From a virus: a stretch of DNA of 21,922 nt. Shown here piece by piece: positions 2,316 through 20,374 of this stretch; within the stretch, counting starts at the first letter, position 1; each line of letters starts with the position of its first letter. The DNA lies in IMG/VR virus record IMGVR_UViG_3300023179_000566, positions 1-21,922 of that record; one strand, given 5' to 3'. A model generated the notes under the pieces. That model saw only the letters and a list, made by a program, of their open reading frames with translations. It had not been told where the DNA came from and did not search any database. A program made the translations under genes and the position numbers.

Positions 2316-3817
2316 TAAACTAATACTCCTATTGTTACTAAACCTGTTAGCCAATCTCTAACGATTGAATAAACAAGTCCTTTTTTACCACTACTTAAAT
2401 TAAATCTATTAGATTTAATAGTAACTATATCTCCTAATTGTACAAAAATAAATTGTGGTAAGTAAGTAGCTGTTATTAAAAATCGTTGTATACCCCATAA
2501 ACTAGATCGTTTTTGAGCCTCTACTTGGGCTTCACTAGTAATTAATAGTTGAGTTACTTCTTCATTTACTAAACCTGTATCTCTATATAATAATTGTTCT
2601 GCTGTTAAAGTATTTGTAGTATATAAATATTCTTCTTGAAAATTACTTGCAGGATTTACACCACCTGCTACAGTTTGTTGTACAGTATAGTTTTTACAAT
2701 AAGCAAGTTTAATAACAGGTTTTACTGGAAATGTTTCGCTTATTGATAATGAATTTACTACCATATAATCATCTGTTAGTTCCCATTTACTAGTTTCAGT
2801 AGGTGCTTTTAATTCTATTAATCTTAATTTACTTGTACTAACTTGATAATTAGATATATTTGTTCCTGTAATAGATATATTTGTACATATTAAACCTGCA
2901 TTTATACTTTTTGCTAATTGGTTACATATATCTAATATATTTAATCTTTGATTACAATATATTCCTACTTTACTACTATTAGTTATATTTGAAAAATCTA
3001 TTTCTGAACTAGTAAAAGCATTAGCTACATTAGTAGTATAATTTTGAACTATAATTTTAATTAGTTCAGGTACAGTACATAAATTTATAGCATTGGTTCT
3101 AGCCGAACAAGTAATAGTTCCTACTGGATTACTAATTGTTTCAAATTCGCCTTTATTTAAATATTTAATTATATCTATTGGTATACCATTATCGCGTACT
3201 TCTATAATATTTTCTATTACTCCATCATGAACTTTATATATTTTGCCAGTATTACCTGTACTACCATTATCTACATATAGTGGCTGAAAATTAAAAACTT
3301 CTCCAAATAGTAGTGGTACTACATTTTCTTTAGCAGTACTATTACTTTCACTATAATTTAGTTGTTGTAATAGTTTAGTCTTTAATACATCATTTAATCT
3401 TTGCATTTTATCTACTAGAGAAAGACTAAGAGTATTTTCACCATTAGATATTAGGTCTTCAACTAATCCATCAAAAATTAATACAAAATCATTTTTAATC
3501 CAACTAGGATCGCCAAGATATATTTTTACAGGTCTTTTTTTCCAAGTATAATTAAGTAAAATATCTATATGACCGCCAGTATTATCCAATTCTACAGTTC
3601 CATAGCTTATGGAAATATTTGCTTCTGCTGAAAGTGATTCTGTAAAATTTAGTCCACTTTTAATAATAGATATATATTCAGGACTATATGGCATACTAGA
3701 AAAATAAAAAGTGGTATTCTGATTATTTGAATCTGTAACCTCTGTAATATCTAATAATATACATTTTATATGGCTAGATGAATTTAACCAACTAATTATT
3801 TGACTAACTGTTTTCAA
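2315..3817 (-). CDS. Tail tip hub-like (baseplate hub / tail-associated) protein
   Basis: This 500-residue protein sits between the distal tail protein and the fibre gene, the usual place of the tail-tip hub. It is beta-rich, with no signal peptide or membrane segment. A GDIVTIKSNRF segment near the C terminus, followed by the end DWLTGLVTIGVLV, resembles the last beta domain of phage hub proteins. The start is TTG at 3815-3817. An in-frame TAA lies directly before it and GGAG is 7 nt upstream, so an earlier start is impossible and a later ATG (residue 43) has less support. The gene begins 13 nt after the distal tail stop, and its last base is shared with the fibre ATG. Hub is assigned from position and overall look; I see no catalytic motif. 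Confidence 0.7.
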   Translation of the reverse strand: MKTVSQIISWLNSSSHIKCILLDITEVTDSNNQNTTFYFSSMPYSPEYISIIKSGLNFTESLSAEANISISYGTVELDNTGGHIDILLNYTWKKRPVKIYLGDPSWIKNDFVLIFDGLVEDLISNGENTLSLSLVDKMQRLNDVLKTKLLQQLNYSESNSTAKENVVPLLFGEVFNFQPLYVDNGSTGNTGKIYKVHDGVIENIIEVRDNGIPIDIIKYLNKGEFETISNPVGTITCSARTNAINLCTVPELIKIIVQNYTTNVANAFTSSEIDFSNITNSSKVGIYCNQRLNILDICNQLAKSINAGLICTNISITGTNISNYQVSTSKLRLIELKAPTETSKWELTDDYMVVNSLSISETFPVKPVIKLAYCKNYTVQQTVAGGVNPASNFQEEYLYTTNTLTAEQLLYRDTGLVNEEVTQLLITSEAQVEAQKRSSLWGIQRFLITATYLPQFIFVQLGDIVTIKSNRFNLSSGKKGLVYSIVRDWLTGLVTIGVLV

Positions 3818-12650: not shown

Positions 12651-13925
12651 TTAAGTTGTTGTTGCTGAGTAATATGCTACTGTGATCTCATTTTCTTGTT
12701 CAAGATCAAGTGCATTAGCTGTTGCACCTTGAGCAGTAAAATTAATTGTTTGACTTACAACTTGCTCAGTATTAATTGTTGGTATTGATAGTACAGCACT
12801 AGGCATGTTTAAAGTAACACGAGTTGCAGAACTACTACTACCACCAATATGTAATGTTAATTTAAAATCAGGTTCTACATCTGTAGTACTGTTAGTTAAC
12901 ATATCGGCCAATAGTGCAGCACTATTTCCAGCACCTGATTTTAAGTAACAGTTAATTGTTCCACTAATAGCACGAGTACCAGTAAAATATGTAGCAGGTC
13001 TATTAACAACACCAAGATTAGCTGGTGTTAAATAAGTAACATTATTAGCAAATGTAATACTACCACCTGTTAGTGCTAATGTATACGTTGTGCCACTAGG
13101 ACTTCCTGCACCAGTATAAGTTGGACTAGTTGTATAAGCTTGTAATGATACACTACTTAATTTATTAGCTAAAAATGGCGCATTTGTTACTTTTTGTTTA
13201 TAACTGCCACTAATACCAGTAAATGTTCCTGGTGTAGTACTACCTGCTGTAATAGCACGTAGTATACCACCACGAACTGTCCAAGCAATAGTTGCAATTG
13301 CATCTAAACCAAAATCAATAGTTGCTTGATCAACTACACAATCATCAACAGCATAACTATTAGCATCTAGTAGAATAATTACACCAAATTTATGTAATTG
13401 ATTTTTATTACTTTTAGTCAGTGATAGTGTACTAACTGGCGTAGCTCCTGGTGTTACTGTCCAAGCAGCATTAGCACCAGTACTACTTATAGGTGTACTA
13501 TCACCATTAGTTTGAACCCAAGGATCACTATTTGTAGTACTACCAATTAACTCATTTTGATTTGGAGTAGCATCTTGATAACCTGCTGCAAATGCATTCC
13601 ACAATACTTCTTCTTCTGCCCCAATCCAATCATCTGCGGTACCTACACCATTAACATTAAATTTTGGACGAATATAAGTACTAAAACTTAGTTCAACTGG
13701 TTCTAAACTAGTATTAAATTGGCGCTGACCGCGTGCTGGATCTGTACCAGCTTCATTAACTGTAATAGTTTCTGTACCAGTATTTTGACTAAAACTTAAG
13801 CCATCTAGTACTTGAATTTCTCTAGTATTACTTGAGGTAAATCCAGTACTATTTACAACACCTGTAAAGCTATTAACATTTGTTGTAAAAAACATACGTG
13901 CGTTACGAATTAAATTAAATGCCAT
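12651..13925 (-). CDS. Major tail tube protein
   Basis: This 424-residue, Thr/Ser/Asn-rich beta protein lies between the tail terminator and the tail chaperones, the standard slot for the tail tube subunit. The N-terminal region contains NTREIQVLDGLSFSQNTGTE and then EPVELSFSTYIRPKF, as expected for a tube-forming beta sandwich. It is longer than simple tube proteins (about 150-250 residues) and closer to T5-like ones, which carry an extra domain; the C-terminal stretch ending TINFTAQGATANALDLEQEN may be such a domain. The start is ATG with GAGGA 7 nt upstream. A hairpin follows the stop. The region looks richer in GC than the flanking tail genes, consistent with high expression. No membrane or signal segment is seen. 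Confidence 0.85.
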   Translation of the reverse strand: MAFNLIRNARMFFTTNVNSFTGVVNSTGFTSSNTREIQVLDGLSFSQNTGTETITVNEAGTDPARGQRQFNTSLEPVELSFSTYIRPKFNVNGVGTADDWIGAEEEVLWNAFAAGYQDATPNQNELIGSTTNSDPWVQTNGDSTPISSTGANAAWTVTPGATPVSTLSLTKSNKNQLHKFGVIILLDANSYAVDDCVVDQATIDFGLDAIATIAWTVRGGILRAITAGSTTPGTFTGISGSYKQKVTNAPFLANKLSSVSLQAYTTSPTYTGAGSPSGTTYTLALTGGSITFANNVTYLTPANLGVVNRPATYFTGTRAISGTINCYLKSGAGNSAALLADMLTNSTTDVEPDFKLTLHIGGSSSSATRVTLNMPSAVLSIPTINTEQVVSQTINFTAQGATANALDLEQENEITVAYYSATTT

Positions 13926-14000
13926 GTTTTATTCCTCATTATTAGGTGCACATTGCATCTACTAGATATTTATCTGTTATTAGCAAATTAGCACGGTTGT

Positions 14001-14441
14001 TTACATGATCTGATAGCGGACCTGTAAATTAATTTCACCAACTGCATATGGAATTAACAGCCCTTCGTCGGTAGTAATAGACTGTATTTGTATTTCAGTT
14101 GTTTCATAGTTATTTGTGGTATCATATACTAGTGTACGATTTAAATCTATACAATTTTCTAGATCAATAAGTAAATTTTCTAGATCTTCTTGTGAATCTT
14201 CTTCATTTTTTACATATACTTTAATACATATATCTAATAAACCCCAGACAAAGCCGCCTGGTAGATAGTCTCGAATTTCATTAGTTGGGTGCACATATAC
14301 TGCTGGAAAATCTTGTATTTCATCCCAAAATTTTAGTTTAGCATAACTATTACTATAAAGATTAGTTTTATATAAGCCAGTACCATTTATACTTTTAAAA
14401 ATTTCTGCTATAGCTTTTACTATACTAACGCGCTTGCTCAT
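14001..14441 (-). CDS. Tail terminator / tail completion-like protein
   Basis: A 146-residue protein encoded directly upstream of the tail tube gene, where siphoviruses place the protein that caps the tail and joins it to the head. It has the usual size and an alternating alpha/beta look: an N-terminal helix (SIVKAIAEIFKSI), a strand FPAVYVHP, a helix LENLLIDLENCIDL and a C-terminal strand GEINLQVRYQI. Its ATG overlaps the stop of the preceding gene by 4 nt (ATGA), so translation is probably coupled. A 75-nt gap follows before the tail tube gene, in which I see no convincing promoter. The call rests on position and fold pattern. Confidence 0.65.
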   Translation of the reverse strand: MSKRVSIVKAIAEIFKSINGTGLYKTNLYSNSYAKLKFWDEIQDFPAVYVHPTNEIRDYLPGGFVWGLLDICIKVYVKNEEDSQEDLENLLIDLENCIDLNRTLVYDTTNNYETTEIQIQSITTDEGLLIPYAVGEINLQVRYQIM

Positions 14442-16758: not shown

Positions 16759-18750
16759 TTAAACGTAACGTACTGTAACTACACCAGCACCTTCGTTGCT
16801 TGTAAGCTGGCTCATAGCTACACGCATACTTGCCACCATTACACGACGCTGATTAACTACTTCATCATCTGTATCCATACGCATTGCACGATGGTTACCA
16901 ACTACGAAGTTACGTGGGTTAACTAATACTGCTAGTGCATCATTAGCGGCTGCACCAGTCATTTGTGCTGTAACTAATACACGAGTTTGTGTTAGTAAAC
17001 CAACTTGACCTGTGATTAGTGTATTACGTGATTCACTGATCTTGTCTGTGCTTTGAAACTCTGTGTCATCTAATAGGTCGTAGTAAGCGGCCTGGCTAAC
17101 AAATAAAATTAGTTCGCTAGGATCTAGACCCCAAACACCTAGTGCACGACGTGCATCACGAAACTTAGCGGCTGTAAATTTAGCAGCAACAGCAACTGTT
17201 GGACTTGAAGTGGCTGATGCATCATAATATGCTAAACCATTAATACCAGCAGTATAAGTTGTAGCACCAACATCGTTACCAATTATCATAGCCTTATCTA
17301 GTGTTTTAGCCATGCGACGAACGATTGCATCACGAATAATAGGAACAATAGCAATTAAACCATCTTCCTCTTCTTCAAAGTTAACATATTCTTTGGTAGC
17401 TAGCTTTGCGCTGCTTATTTCAATCTCTTTTAGTGCATGTGTACGTTGTGTACCGCTGCTTGAACTACCACCAAAATCGCTGTTAGCTACCCAAGTTGCA
17501 TCTGCACCAGCATCAGGATTGATAGGCAGCTTCATGAAAGGCTGGCTCATAGCAATATTACGGATTGTACCAGCAACAACTAGTTGACGACGAATTTCGT
17601 CTTCCATGTTTAAGCTGATTTCTGTTTCCCAGTTCTTGCTTGGTAGGCGAATAGCACCACCAGCACCACTACCACTACCAGCAGCACCAGCTGTACCACC
17701 GCTAGCATACTTAGTTGCTAGATCCTTGTAGTATTTGGTTTCTTCAACTGGACGCTTTGTGATTTTGCTGATAAACACAGCAGCTTGCTTCTCCTGAAAG
17801 CTAATGTCACCATTATCAACCTTAGGGTCTGTAAACTGCATACGGCTCTTTTGAATAGCTTCTAGTTCAGCAGCTTTTTCGCGCAGAGCTGTTTCTAAAC
17901 CTTCAAGTGCGCTCTTGTGTGATTCAGCTTGTTCATTAAGACGCTTTTCAACGTCGGCTAGTAAGCGCTCTGCACCTGTGTCAACTGTTTGTACTGCAGC
18001 AACAGCAGCTTTGATTTTTGCTTCTAGTGCAGCTTCTGCTTTGGCAGCTTCAGCGGCTTCTTGAGCAGCTTTAGTTTGTGCTTCAACAACAGCTTTTGCA
18101 GTTTGCTCAGCAGCAGTAGCAGCAGCTTTAGCTAACATTTCTTCTAGTAATTTTGGATCCATGTTCCATTCCTCTTTATTTGCGCTATTTGCTGATTCAG
18201 AGTCCTCTAGCCCTTTAGCTGATTCTTCTACTGCAAATTGCTGTTTAAATAACTCATATTCCTCTGCACTATCAAATGCTTTGGCTAAACTAAAAAGCGT
18301 ATTCTGATTAGCAGGTACGCTGACTACACTAATTTCATGTAATTCTAAGTCTTTGATTAAAAATACTTCTACTTCTGACTTATACTCTGCATCTTTGACC
18401 CTAAACCCAATACTAAATGCACTTAAGATACCTTTCTTAATTAGCTTGTACACATCGCCGGCAGCGTCTGTAATTGCAGCTTTAATCCACAATCCTTTAT
18501 CGTCAACTTTGTGATCAACCATTTTACCAACAGGCATACGCTGATCGTGAAAGGCTAGAATAATTGGATTCTTTAAATAATTTTCCATACCCTTGGCCCA
18601 AACACTAGTAGGTACTACATCGCCTACGCGATCAGTATCATTAGTAGAGGCATAGCCTTCTATCATGATTGTCTGATCGCCATCATCCTGTGGCAGTGCT
18701 TTAGCAGTAAATTTAGACCCAAAGTAAATAATTTTATTTTTGATGTCCAT
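16759..18750 (-). CDS. Prohead protease - scaffold (delta domain) - major capsid protein fusion
   Basis: One 663-residue frame joins functions that HK97-type phages often keep separate. Residues 1-160 are an HK97-type prohead protease, with likely catalytic residues His68 (AFHDQ), Ser113 (AFSIGF) and Glu139 (LHEISVVSVPAN). Residues about 197-305 are an Ala/Glu/Lys-rich coiled coil (EAAEAAKAEAALEAKIKAAV), as expected of a delta or scaffold domain. A Gly/Ala/Ser linker (350-366) leads to an HK97-fold capsid protein (NMEDEIRRQLVVAGTIRNIA, later RRMAKTLDKAMIIGND). The start ATG directly abuts the portal TAA, with AAGGAG 11 nt upstream. An internal ATG at codon 197 has its own good ribosome site, so a 467-residue capsid precursor may be made in excess. 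Cleavage by the protease would then free the mature capsid protein. The cleavage point cannot be read from sequence. Confidence 0.93.
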   Translation of the reverse strand: MDIKNKIIYFGSKFTAKALPQDDGDQTIMIEGYASTNDTDRVGDVVPTSVWAKGMENYLKNPIILAFHDQRMPVGKMVDHKVDDKGLWIKAAITDAAGDVYKLIKKGILSAFSIGFRVKDAEYKSEVEVFLIKDLELHEISVVSVPANQNTLFSLAKAFDSAEEYELFKQQFAVEESAKGLEDSESANSANKEEWNMDPKLLEEMLAKAAATAAEQTAKAVVEAQTKAAQEAAEAAKAEAALEAKIKAAVAAVQTVDTGAERLLADVEKRLNEQAESHKSALEGLETALREKAAELEAIQKSRMQFTDPKVDNGDISFQEKQAAVFISKITKRPVEETKYYKDLATKYASGGTAGAAGSGSGAGGAIRLPSKNWETEISLNMEDEIRRQLVVAGTIRNIAMSQPFMKLPINPDAGADATWVANSDFGGSSSSGTQRTHALKEIEISSAKLATKEYVNFEEEEDGLIAIVPIIRDAIVRRMAKTLDKAMIIGNDVGATTYTAGINGLAYYDASATSSPTVAVAAKFTAAKFRDARRALGVWGLDPSELILFVSQAAYYDLLDDTEFQSTDKISESRNTLITGQVGLLTQTRVLVTAQMTGAAANDALAVLVNPRNFVVGNHRAMRMDTDDEVVNQRRVMVASMRVAMSQLTSNEGAGVVTVRYV
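18160..18175 (-). promoter_or_regulatory. Internal ribosome binding site and in-frame ATG for the capsid precursor
   Basis: On the minus strand AGAGG (18175-18171) lies 8 nt before an ATG (18162-18160) that is codon 197 of the fusion frame. It falls exactly at the junction between protease and scaffold domain (NKEEWN, then MDPKLLEEM). Confidence 0.65.
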
Positions 18751-19935
18751 TTACGCGCTTGCTCCTTGTGGCCTACCGCCTTGTGCGGGGTTGGCTGCTG
18801 AACCTGCAATATTTGCAGGTACTCTAATGGCATCCTGACCATCAATCTTAGGATACCTTAATTCTATTCTAGCCTCATTGGGTGTTATAACACCACCATT
18901 AACTAGTGTGCTGTGATACTTTGCTATTTCACCTATATCAGGCTGTAGTGCACTTACCATTGAGGTGATTGCTTCCACGTCATATCCAAAATATCGCTCC
19001 ACAGCGGATATATACAGCTTAACAATTGGCAATACTGTTTCCAGGTAAAATAACCGTAGATTAGGGGCAATGTTAGCATTGTTACCACCTTGTAGTAATA
19101 TTGGTGGGACTCCAACTGCAGTCATTATACGCTCACCATGTGTTTTTATTGCACGATCAAAATCTAGGTCGCTAAAACTTTGTTCTGATAGTTTAATAGG
19201 TTTAAGTCCACTATCTAAAATAATAGGACGCTTGCCGCCTGATTTAGTATTATATCGTTGTTGCCAGTACTGTAGTGTTTTTTCCTTAGCAACTTGCGAT
19301 AAACTATTTTCGGATGTAAGTACCAAACCAAAAACAGTACCATTATCAAAAAACTTTTGCTGAAACTCTTGCATTGAAAATAAGATATTAATATTTTCTA
19401 TACAACTTTGTAGCCTGCTAGCACCTCGATAGATGCTTTCACTATTAATATCTTTAAAATAAAATACTTCTGTATCCTTAAAATCTACCGAACCACTGTA
19501 CCTAAAGCCCTTAATAAAAGTTTTAGGGTCGCTGTTAATATCTACATTAGTAGCTGGTAGATGGTACATAAAAGTACCATCAAAGTGTATAAAAGCATTG
19601 CCTTCCAGCAACAAGTCTTTAAAAATCTCACGTCTAAAATCTTGTGCTGATTGGTAAGGATTTGGTCTGTAGTTTAAGAGTATGTTTAATGTTTTTTGGC
19701 GAACACCTAGTGCTACACCATCTATTACTTTGTCTTTTATATCATAGTCTAAGCTAGCACAAGCTGCTACAACCATGTTTACTGATCTGTTTACACTATC
19801 TATATTTTTAAAAGCCTGCTGGTAGCTAAGCAGTCTACCCTCAGTACCAATGGTACCGCCTTCGTCATAGTGTATTTGTTGTTGAGCTGGATTAAGTTTT
19901 TCACGAATCCAACTACTAATCTTTTCTAGTGCCAC
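18751..19935 (-). CDS. Portal protein, HK97 family
   Basis: A 394-residue portal that forms the dodecameric ring through which DNA enters and leaves the head. Family-like segments are RPNPYQSAQDFRREIFKDLL followed by EGNAFIHF, the helix-rich KTHGERIMTAVGVPPILLQG and the closing LRLFYLETVLPIVKLYISAV stem region. The length fits HK97-type portals (about 390-450). The start is GTG at 19933-19935, with AGGGG 6 nt upstream, inside the last 20 bases of the HNH gene. The stop directly abuts the capsid-fusion ATG. The C-terminal tail is Pro/Gly/Ala-rich (NPAQGGRPQGASA) and probably disordered. Confidence 0.92.
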   Translation of the reverse strand: MALEKISSWIREKLNPAQQQIHYDEGGTIGTEGRLLSYQQAFKNIDSVNRSVNMVVAACASLDYDIKDKVIDGVALGVRQKTLNILLNYRPNPYQSAQDFRREIFKDLLLEGNAFIHFDGTFMYHLPATNVDINSDPKTFIKGFRYSGSVDFKDTEVFYFKDINSESIYRGASRLQSCIENINILFSMQEFQQKFFDNGTVFGLVLTSENSLSQVAKEKTLQYWQQRYNTKSGGKRPIILDSGLKPIKLSEQSFSDLDFDRAIKTHGERIMTAVGVPPILLQGGNNANIAPNLRLFYLETVLPIVKLYISAVERYFGYDVEAITSMVSALQPDIGEIAKYHSTLVNGGVITPNEARIELRYPKIDGQDAIRVPANIAGSAANPAQGGRPQGASA

Positions 19936-20374
19936 TATTTTCCCCTAAAAATTGTGAAAAATAGGAACCATAACTAGACCCACGAAAATTAATATCACCA
20001 CTTGTATGCTTCTCCTGCTGCAATTCAATCCAGCGCTTTTGCTTTGCTACACTACTAGGAGCAGGGCTCTTTCCATAGATTCCATGCAGTTGAACATGAT
20101 GACGATTGCATAGGGTATATACAAGTTCATATATTTCTTCATGGTGTTCAGCAATAAACTGGTCACGAATAGCTAACACAGCTTCATCCGTACTAATATC
20201 AATAGAACTACGACTTGCCCAAGTTTCTAACAAGTAGGTTATTGAGTTAAGATGGTGAAGCTCTAGTTCATTAGTAGTTTTACATATATAGCAGCGATCA
20301 GCCTTTTCATAGGCACTTTTAGCCTTATCCCTAATCCACTTTACGGCTATGCGCTTGTTAGTATTTACCGCCAC
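19916..20374 (-). CDS. HNH endonuclease, probably packaging-associated
   Basis: The protein has 152 residues. Zinc-binding C28-x2-C31 (CYIC) and C89-x2-H92 (LCNRHH) frame the HNH core LELHHLNS (His40, His41), with LHGIYGKSP after it. It lies between the large terminase and portal genes. In HK97 the HNH protein gp74 is needed for terminase cutting at cos; the position here suggests a similar helper role and hints at cohesive-end packaging. A free-standing homing endonuclease is the alternative, but the tight overlap with the portal (20 nt) favours an integrated function. The start is GTG at 20372-20374 with GGAG 6 nt upstream; an ATG two bases earlier leads to a stop within three codons. A candidate promoter lies just upstream. 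Confidence 0.82.
   Translation of the reverse strand: MAVNTNKRIAVKWIRDKAKSAYEKADRCYICKTTNELELHHLNSITYLLETWASRSSIDISTDEAVLAIRDQFIAEHHEEIYELVYTLCNRHHVQLHGIYGKSPAPSSVAKQKRWIELQQEKHTSGDINFRGSSYGSYFSQFLGENSGTRKD
19933..19946 (-). promoter_or_regulatory. Ribosome binding site that fixes a GTG start for the portal gene
   Basis: AGGGG (19946-19942 on the minus strand) lies 6 nt before GTG 19935-19933, within the end of the HNH coding sequence. Confidence 0.65.

Follow-up and report, generated by a model that had tools for sequence, protein, structure and literature searches.

A conserved internal start site and a structured RNA element in a fused protease–capsid gene of T5-related environmental phages

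A gene that joins a prohead protease to a major capsid protein in one frame raises the question of how such a covalent fusion fits a head for which far fewer protease molecules than capsid subunits may suffice. We addressed this question at a locus in a 21.9-kb virus record, the whole of which (21,922 nucleotides) is called the window here. A start site conserved inside the fused gene, together with a conserved RNA structure upstream of it, hints at how one gene could yield little protease and much capsid protein, which would answer the question for this phage group.

The late genes of the window lie on the minus strand in the order terminase, small gene, portal, fusion gene, head completion, two more genes and major tail protein, followed by two small genes, a 2328-aa gene that is tape-measure-like as judged by its size, and tail genes. 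The small gene between terminase and portal (19,916–20,374, minus strand) is HNH-like and belongs to phrog_3497 (function unknown); T5-like Vibrio phages have a hypothetical gene at this position. A tail-fibre-like open frame at 3–2,354, also on the minus strand, contains many near-identical repeats (KTAALLAQAGAETAKDSSI, ATSATNAAGSASSASTSATTAANSATAAGNSATAA).

The fused gene and its internal start

The fused gene (16,759–18,750, minus strand) encodes a prohead protease of the S78 type, a delta domain and a major capsid protein in 663 codons, in agreement with a preliminary description that had read protease and capsid from a single frame. In Pfam searches, a Peptidase_S78 domain covers residues 21–154 of the 663-aa fusion (E = 6.7e-20) and a Phage_capsid domain covers residues 382–646 (E = 6.9e-8), placing the capsid part among homologues of the HK97 fold. 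Among PDB entries, the major capsid protein of T5 (5tjt, E = 1e-37) aligns with residues 365–652, and the match to the 458-aa T5-type precursor chain 8zvi begins at residue 165 of that chain, with the mature capsid part of the fusion aligned as in T5. Capsid proteins of the T5/HK97 type carry an N-terminal helical extension of about 160 residues, which is lost at maturation. The ribosome-binding region of the full-length fusion (18,751–18,773, minus strand) contains AAGGAG, with a duplex energy of −7.7. An AlphaFold model, in which the linker before residue 199 is unstructured and residues 199–302 form long helices, was left out of all claims about the fold owing to its poor quality (pLDDT 43, 13 sequences).

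In each of the 157 relatives whose sequence spans the junction, protease and capsid share a single open frame, and split protease and capsid genes are absent within this group (157 fused loci, 136 distinct). A scan of genome contigs found no cellular or prophage copy. The linker sequence varies among the 157 loci, with four lengths of 39, 42, 43 or 44 codons; that its frame is nevertheless open in every one of them suggests that the fusion product is probably also selected, most simply because it would take the protease into the prohead.

Codon 197 of the fusion is an ATG (Met197; 18,160–18,162, minus strand), preceded at a spacing of 8 nt by the Shine–Dalgarno (SD) sequence AGAGG (18,171–18,175, minus strand), just as the preliminary description had read it. 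That description also proposed that ribosomes initiate here, and the site proves to be conserved: none of the 136 distinct homologues, all fused, lacks Met197 or its SD. Between them they have 70 distinct upstream contexts, in every one of which the SD duplex is at −5.3 kcal/mol or lower. The homologues are mutually related, so that the counts are not independent events. A value of −5 is reached by 2.5% of 712 other in-frame ATG contexts in the same genes. An earlier set had already shown the Met in 80 of 80 sequences (79 fusions and the window), the 79 fusions coming from two pattern searches, one with all of its patterns outside the junction and the other with one of six patterns touching it; a later search, in which one of two patterns touched the junction, led to the enlarged set.

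The region is rich in Lys and Glu, and synonymous recoding alone therefore reaches −5 in 43% of draws on average, although never in every sequence at once. The amino acids thus account for the SD in part, but are insufficient to explain its conservation, for which the pattern of change is the stronger evidence. At codon 193, nine changes fall at positions 1 and 2 and a single one at position 3, for which the gene mean is 11.3; where this codon encodes Arg, it is AGG, which makes up 5% of Arg codons. The SD is kept across six residue triplets (K-E-E, T-K-E, K-R-E, E-R-K, N-E-E and S-K-E), and in one relative (L090) it is kept though moved by one codon, a 3-nt shift. The synonymous sites of the SD–ATG are among the slowest in the gene. 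Conservation beyond codon constraint, on which the preliminary description had left its proposal to depend, is thus borne out by a third position held while the first two change and by an SD that survives residue changes, and these comparisons support the internal SD–ATG as a start site conserved more than by chance. Another low-change spot, at codons 352–355, falls within a stretch absent from some relatives and is unremarkable in the synonymous analysis.

Initiation at Met197 is very likely and would give a 467-aa delta-capsid precursor (16,759–18,162, minus strand) resembling T5 pb8, the precursor of which has 458 aa. Since the T5-type match begins at residue 165 of that precursor, the 467-aa product would correspond to the whole extent of the pb8 precursor, delta domain included. 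Ribosomes starting at 18,750 would then produce the protease–delta–capsid fusion, and those starting at the internal SD–ATG the equivalent of T5 pb8. On this reading Met197 would be the main source of capsid subunits. The fusion, as a minority product, could co-assemble with these subunits and bring the protease covalently into the prohead. The preliminary description had gone further and proposed strong initiation at this site, with a protease domain on only a minority of subunits, which may be how the ratio of protease to capsid is set.

A conserved RNA element upstream of Met197

Synonymous change is suppressed across codons 167–200, beyond the SD itself. The larger feature of this region, which the preliminary description had missed, is a conserved RNA element upstream of the internal SD and within the coding sequence (18,184–18,241, minus strand), consisting of a stalk, P1, and a hairpin, P2. 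The 5′ strand of P1, GC-a-AUUUGC (18,233–18,241), pairs with its 3′ strand, GCAAAU-a-GC (18,184–18,192), through compensatory changes on both sides, and P2 is a near-invariant bulged hairpin, UC-AGCU-AAAG-GGCU-a-GA (18,206–18,222), all on the minus strand. Along the alignment the order is gCA.TTTgC, then tCAGCTAAAGGGCTnGA, then gCAAA.aGC. The GCTAA core of P2 lies 57 nt from the ATG in 130 of 136 homologues and 60 nt from it in five.

Among 103 distinct sequences of the capsid element, 91.7% of cells are in standard pairs, compared with 22–41% when the partner strand is slid by 1–3 columns, and 31 two-sided changes occur, compared with 7.9 in shuffled alignments, none of 500 of which reaches 31. 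Divergent stalks read from the alignment illustrate this, with GUCAAUUUGC facing GCAAAAUUGAC (L161, L169), GCUC facing GAGC (the L106 group) and GUCGUUUGU facing ACAAAAGAC (L098). The P1 duplex has an energy of −10.7 kcal/mol, compared with −6.9 after synonymous recoding, and 47% of sequences fall in the best 5%. The same cells include 110 G-U and only 17 A-C combinations, an excess indicating that the paired molecule is RNA of the sense (coding) strand.

Other measures are less telling. By whole-region folding energy, just 13.6% of sequences rank in the best 5%, and the window sequence folded by itself is unremarkable (z = −0.8). RNAalifold, applied to a MAFFT alignment, returned only four pairs, all in P2; it missed P1 because indels upstream of P2 shift P1, which was recovered by counting the named structure and with codon-anchored rows. 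P2 itself is so nearly invariant in the capsid set that it covaries little there.

In the predicted ensemble the SD is unpaired with a mean value of 0.79 and the AUG with 0.88, the value for control positions being 0.38. The mRNA just 5′ of the internal start would therefore be expected, on this prediction, to fold as P1 and bulged P2 while leaving SD and AUG unpaired. A further small pairing, UGGA-ACAUGGA-UCCA at codons 195–199 (18,154–18,168, minus strand), would put the internal AUG in a hairpin loop; it is kept in some relatives with other residues (UGGAAAUGACUCCA) and not in others.

A second copy before the major tail protein gene

A covariance model (R1) built from the capsid element matched one other place in the window, 13,923–14,011 on the minus strand, which runs up to the ATG of the major tail protein gene and is for the most part contained in the 75-nt gap after the preceding gene. 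This second copy (13,946–13,994, minus strand) forms the leader of the major tail protein gene (12,651–13,925, minus strand; phrog_3575), the other of the two genes preceded by the element, and contains a P2 hairpin, CAGAU-AAAU-AUCU-a-G (13,962–13,976), which is followed by the SD of the tail gene, GAGGA (13,933–13,937). In 62 sources (505 kb), all 23 secondary matches of R1 fell at the tail leader; more than 20 related contigs have the match there, at an unchanged offset.

Tail leaders aligned alone (n = 49) have 90.2% paired cells, compared with 25–45% when slid, and 118 double-changed cells, compared with 37.8 in shuffles, with compensatory changes in five of five outer and three of three middle stalk pairs. 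A conserved secondary structure with compensatory changes is therefore found above shuffled and slid controls in both copies of the element. P2 reads CAGAU-AAAN-RUCU-a-G in the tail leader and CAGCU-AAAN-RGCU-n-G in the capsid gene, a difference from A-U to C-G that, read across the two alignments, is itself compensatory.

The core occurs within two mismatches in 66 distinct tail leaders (68 examined), the exceptions being a T5-like phage and L015 (contig 3300016657_000032). L015 is the sole relative without the capsid P2 core and lacks P2 in both genes; it keeps the internal SD–ATG, which indicates that P2 is not required for the start. The joint absence of P2 in this contig hints at the loss of a trans-acting partner.

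The element appears specific to these two genes. A model built from tail leaders only (R2) matched the capsid element, weakly (E = 0.2–2.9), and found nothing beyond the capsid and tail places in 357 kb, with no match in T5-like loci. In 13 records of up to 104 kb, the strong matches were the capsid and tail places, about 4 kb apart, with a partial tail match only in G007 (E = 0.1); other matches in these records were weak and, where checked, without a matching gene start. One such weak match (G012:5070-5133, on a 99-kb contig) was dismissed, having neither gene start nor hairpin core.

Pattern scans of IMG/VR for the two hairpin cores agree with this. For the tail-type core, 56 of the 80 matches listed are followed at 50–58 nt by an SD start whose product is homologous to the tail protein, a further one has a weak candidate start with no homology, and the remaining 23 lack a start. 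Among the matches listed, every tail-type hairpin with a good SD start, 56 in all, thus precedes the tail gene. For the capsid-type core, 62 of the 80 matches listed lie within protease–capsid fusions with an internal start, two more lie in fusions ending at contig ends and 16 are unrelated; 64 of the 65 capsid-type hairpins with an SD start, among the matches listed, fall in a fusion. Apart from chance matches, either hairpin core marks only the capsid fusion and the tail genes among the matches listed.

No Rfam 15 family matches either copy at its gathering score. In an environmental, water-borne group of T5-related phages, the element thus marks the genes for capsid and tail tube, and it is partly hidden in coding sequence, outside the reach of intergenic RNA-motif searches.

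Candidate roles of the element and related systems

Comparison among relatives shows the SD–ATG and RNA features, their conservation and pairing, their specificity for two genes and the kept fusion frame. The explanation that we find best, and consider very probable overall, is that two proteins are made from one gene and that a shared structured leader stands before the capsid and tail genes. Its presence ahead of the major tail protein gene as well suggests that the element serves as a shared mRNA leader, which would raise or time production of the two most plentiful virion proteins, with the capsid copy embedded in the coding sequence of the protease linker while the frame stays intact. We infer that the RNA acts on translation, not on mRNA processing, mRNA stability or protein binding. 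The T7 gene 10 leader is a structured leader of a highly expressed phage gene, and likewise an RNA element before a major structural gene; the window differs in having one of its copies inside coding sequence. More tentatively, with a chance that we put slightly short of even, the element may represent a new RNA family, a translational leader recognised in trans that jointly sets the output of both bulk structural proteins, with one copy written into the coding sequence of the upstream enzyme, such that a single frame serves as linker, regulatory RNA and start and sets the ratio of protease to capsid.

It is quite possible, if on the whole somewhat improbable, that the element is instead bound by a protein of the phage or its host, such as a repressor, activator or timing factor, which would recognise P2 and couple capsid and tail synthesis, internal initiation then being real but regulated. 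P2 is indeed conserved in sequence (CAG[A/C]U-AAAN-R[U/G]CU-n-G), whereas the stalk is free to vary as long as changes are compensated; P2 also keeps an almost constant distance to the start in the capsid gene, and L015 is without it in both copies. However, the element neither overlaps nor sequesters the SD, the binding protein is a putative one, and the co-loss in L015 concerns one contig.

We consider it rather unlikely that the element directs mRNA processing or stability, as an RNase III or RNase E site might, and thereby provides separate 5′ ends for the capsid and tail messages. Hairpins stand, in outline, directly before highly expressed late genes in T7, and the position of the hairpin right upstream of such genes here recalls that arrangement; neither element site has a detectable terminator or, on the gene strand, a sigma-70-like promoter. 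Yet the stalk is short and interrupted, unlike typical RNase III substrates, which are long, and the cleavage, so far a predicted one, would if it fell inside the capsid gene destroy the fusion message, the frame of which is kept.

T5-like phages (Demerecviridae) have homologous protease and capsid proteins, the latter being the major head protein pb8, and a gene order similar to that of the window (TerL, small gene, portal, protease, capsid). In these phages, including those of Vibrio, protease and capsid are encoded by two adjacent genes, the second of which starts at the same domain boundary, whereas the window has one fused frame with an RNA element that the T5-like loci tested lack. Met197 and AGAGG could accordingly be viewed as an unused relic of an ancestral separate capsid start, with only the fusion made and cut by its own protease, and fusions of another lineage, described below, often have no strong internal SD–ATG. 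We regard this as very unlikely and reject it: a relic would decay, but all 70 contexts retain the SD and compensatory changes maintain the RNA structure, and the absence of the element from the T5-like loci tested indicates that it was not simply inherited from a separate T5-like gene. In three T5-like Vibrio phages (L024, L026 and L027), a possible CUAGC..GCUAG hairpin lies near 3,530–3,590, at the end of the protease gene and before the capsid start.

A promoter or a DNA protein-binding site before the capsid and tail genes could likewise place the same element before two late structural genes, but such a DNA-level role is highly improbable, and the promoter reading is rejected, given compensatory pairing in which G-U far exceeds A-C, as in sense-strand RNA, and the lack of a sigma-70-like match on the gene strand. 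Programmed frameshifting towards a free protease ending at the −1 TAA (AGC TAA) found in nearly all sequences is barely credible and was rejected, as other −1 stops lie just upstream, no conserved in-frame slippery heptamer is present there, the TAA is part of the P2 stem-loop, and the same structure sits in an untranslated gap before the tail gene.

Nested starts in head genes have a precedent in lambda, where an in-frame start inside the head protease gene C gives Nu3, the two products sharing a C-terminus. The preliminary description drew this parallel, and its nested-start logic applies to the window, where an in-frame SD start at the domain boundary is conserved (Met in 136 of 136 homologues, SD in 70 of 70 contexts); the likeness ends at the product, which in lambda is a separate scaffold and here is the capsid protein itself, with its own scaffold domain. 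Fusion of a scaffold domain to the capsid protein is known from HK97 and T5 (PMC10275583). HK97, with its gp4 protease and gp5 delta-capsid protein, resembles the window in having an S78-type protease and an N-terminal scaffold domain on the capsid protein, but in HK97, as in T5, protease and capsid are separate genes. Fusions, nested head-gene starts and structured leaders are thus each already known, while their combination and the RNA element were not found in Rfam or the literature searched; in the open-access literature, we found nothing on the element or on dual starts in such fusions.

In actinobacteriophages, a ‘major capsid and protease fusion’ has been annotated as a single gene (PMC9671004, PMC9753647, PMC6606914), as in the window, although these fusions are not close to it in sequence, and the RNA model had no match in the three that were tested. 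In three annotated actinophage protease–capsid fusions the strongest SD–ATG lies at the boundary, and the same holds for eight of eight Microbacterium EE phages and nine of twelve small AN-like actinophages. In Arthrobacter AU-like fusions, by comparison, a strong SD–ATG occurs in the linker in 26 of 81, compared with 12% of the ATGs in the rest of these genes, and we therefore rejected the idea that dual starts are universal in fusions. Internal starts in protease–capsid fusions are common, not a rule. Their occurrence in several unrelated lineages suggests that annotated ‘capsid-protease fusions’ are often dual-start genes with an unannotated capsid product. The preliminary description had further argued that a shell built only of fusion subunits would hold an excess of protease, an argument weakened by these AU-like phages: most of them are without a strong linker SD–ATG, so all-fusion shells may exist and reasoning from protease excess is unsafe. 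In the 55 of 81 AU-like fusions without a strong linker SD–ATG (within L404–L483), heads may use fusion subunits only, or another route.
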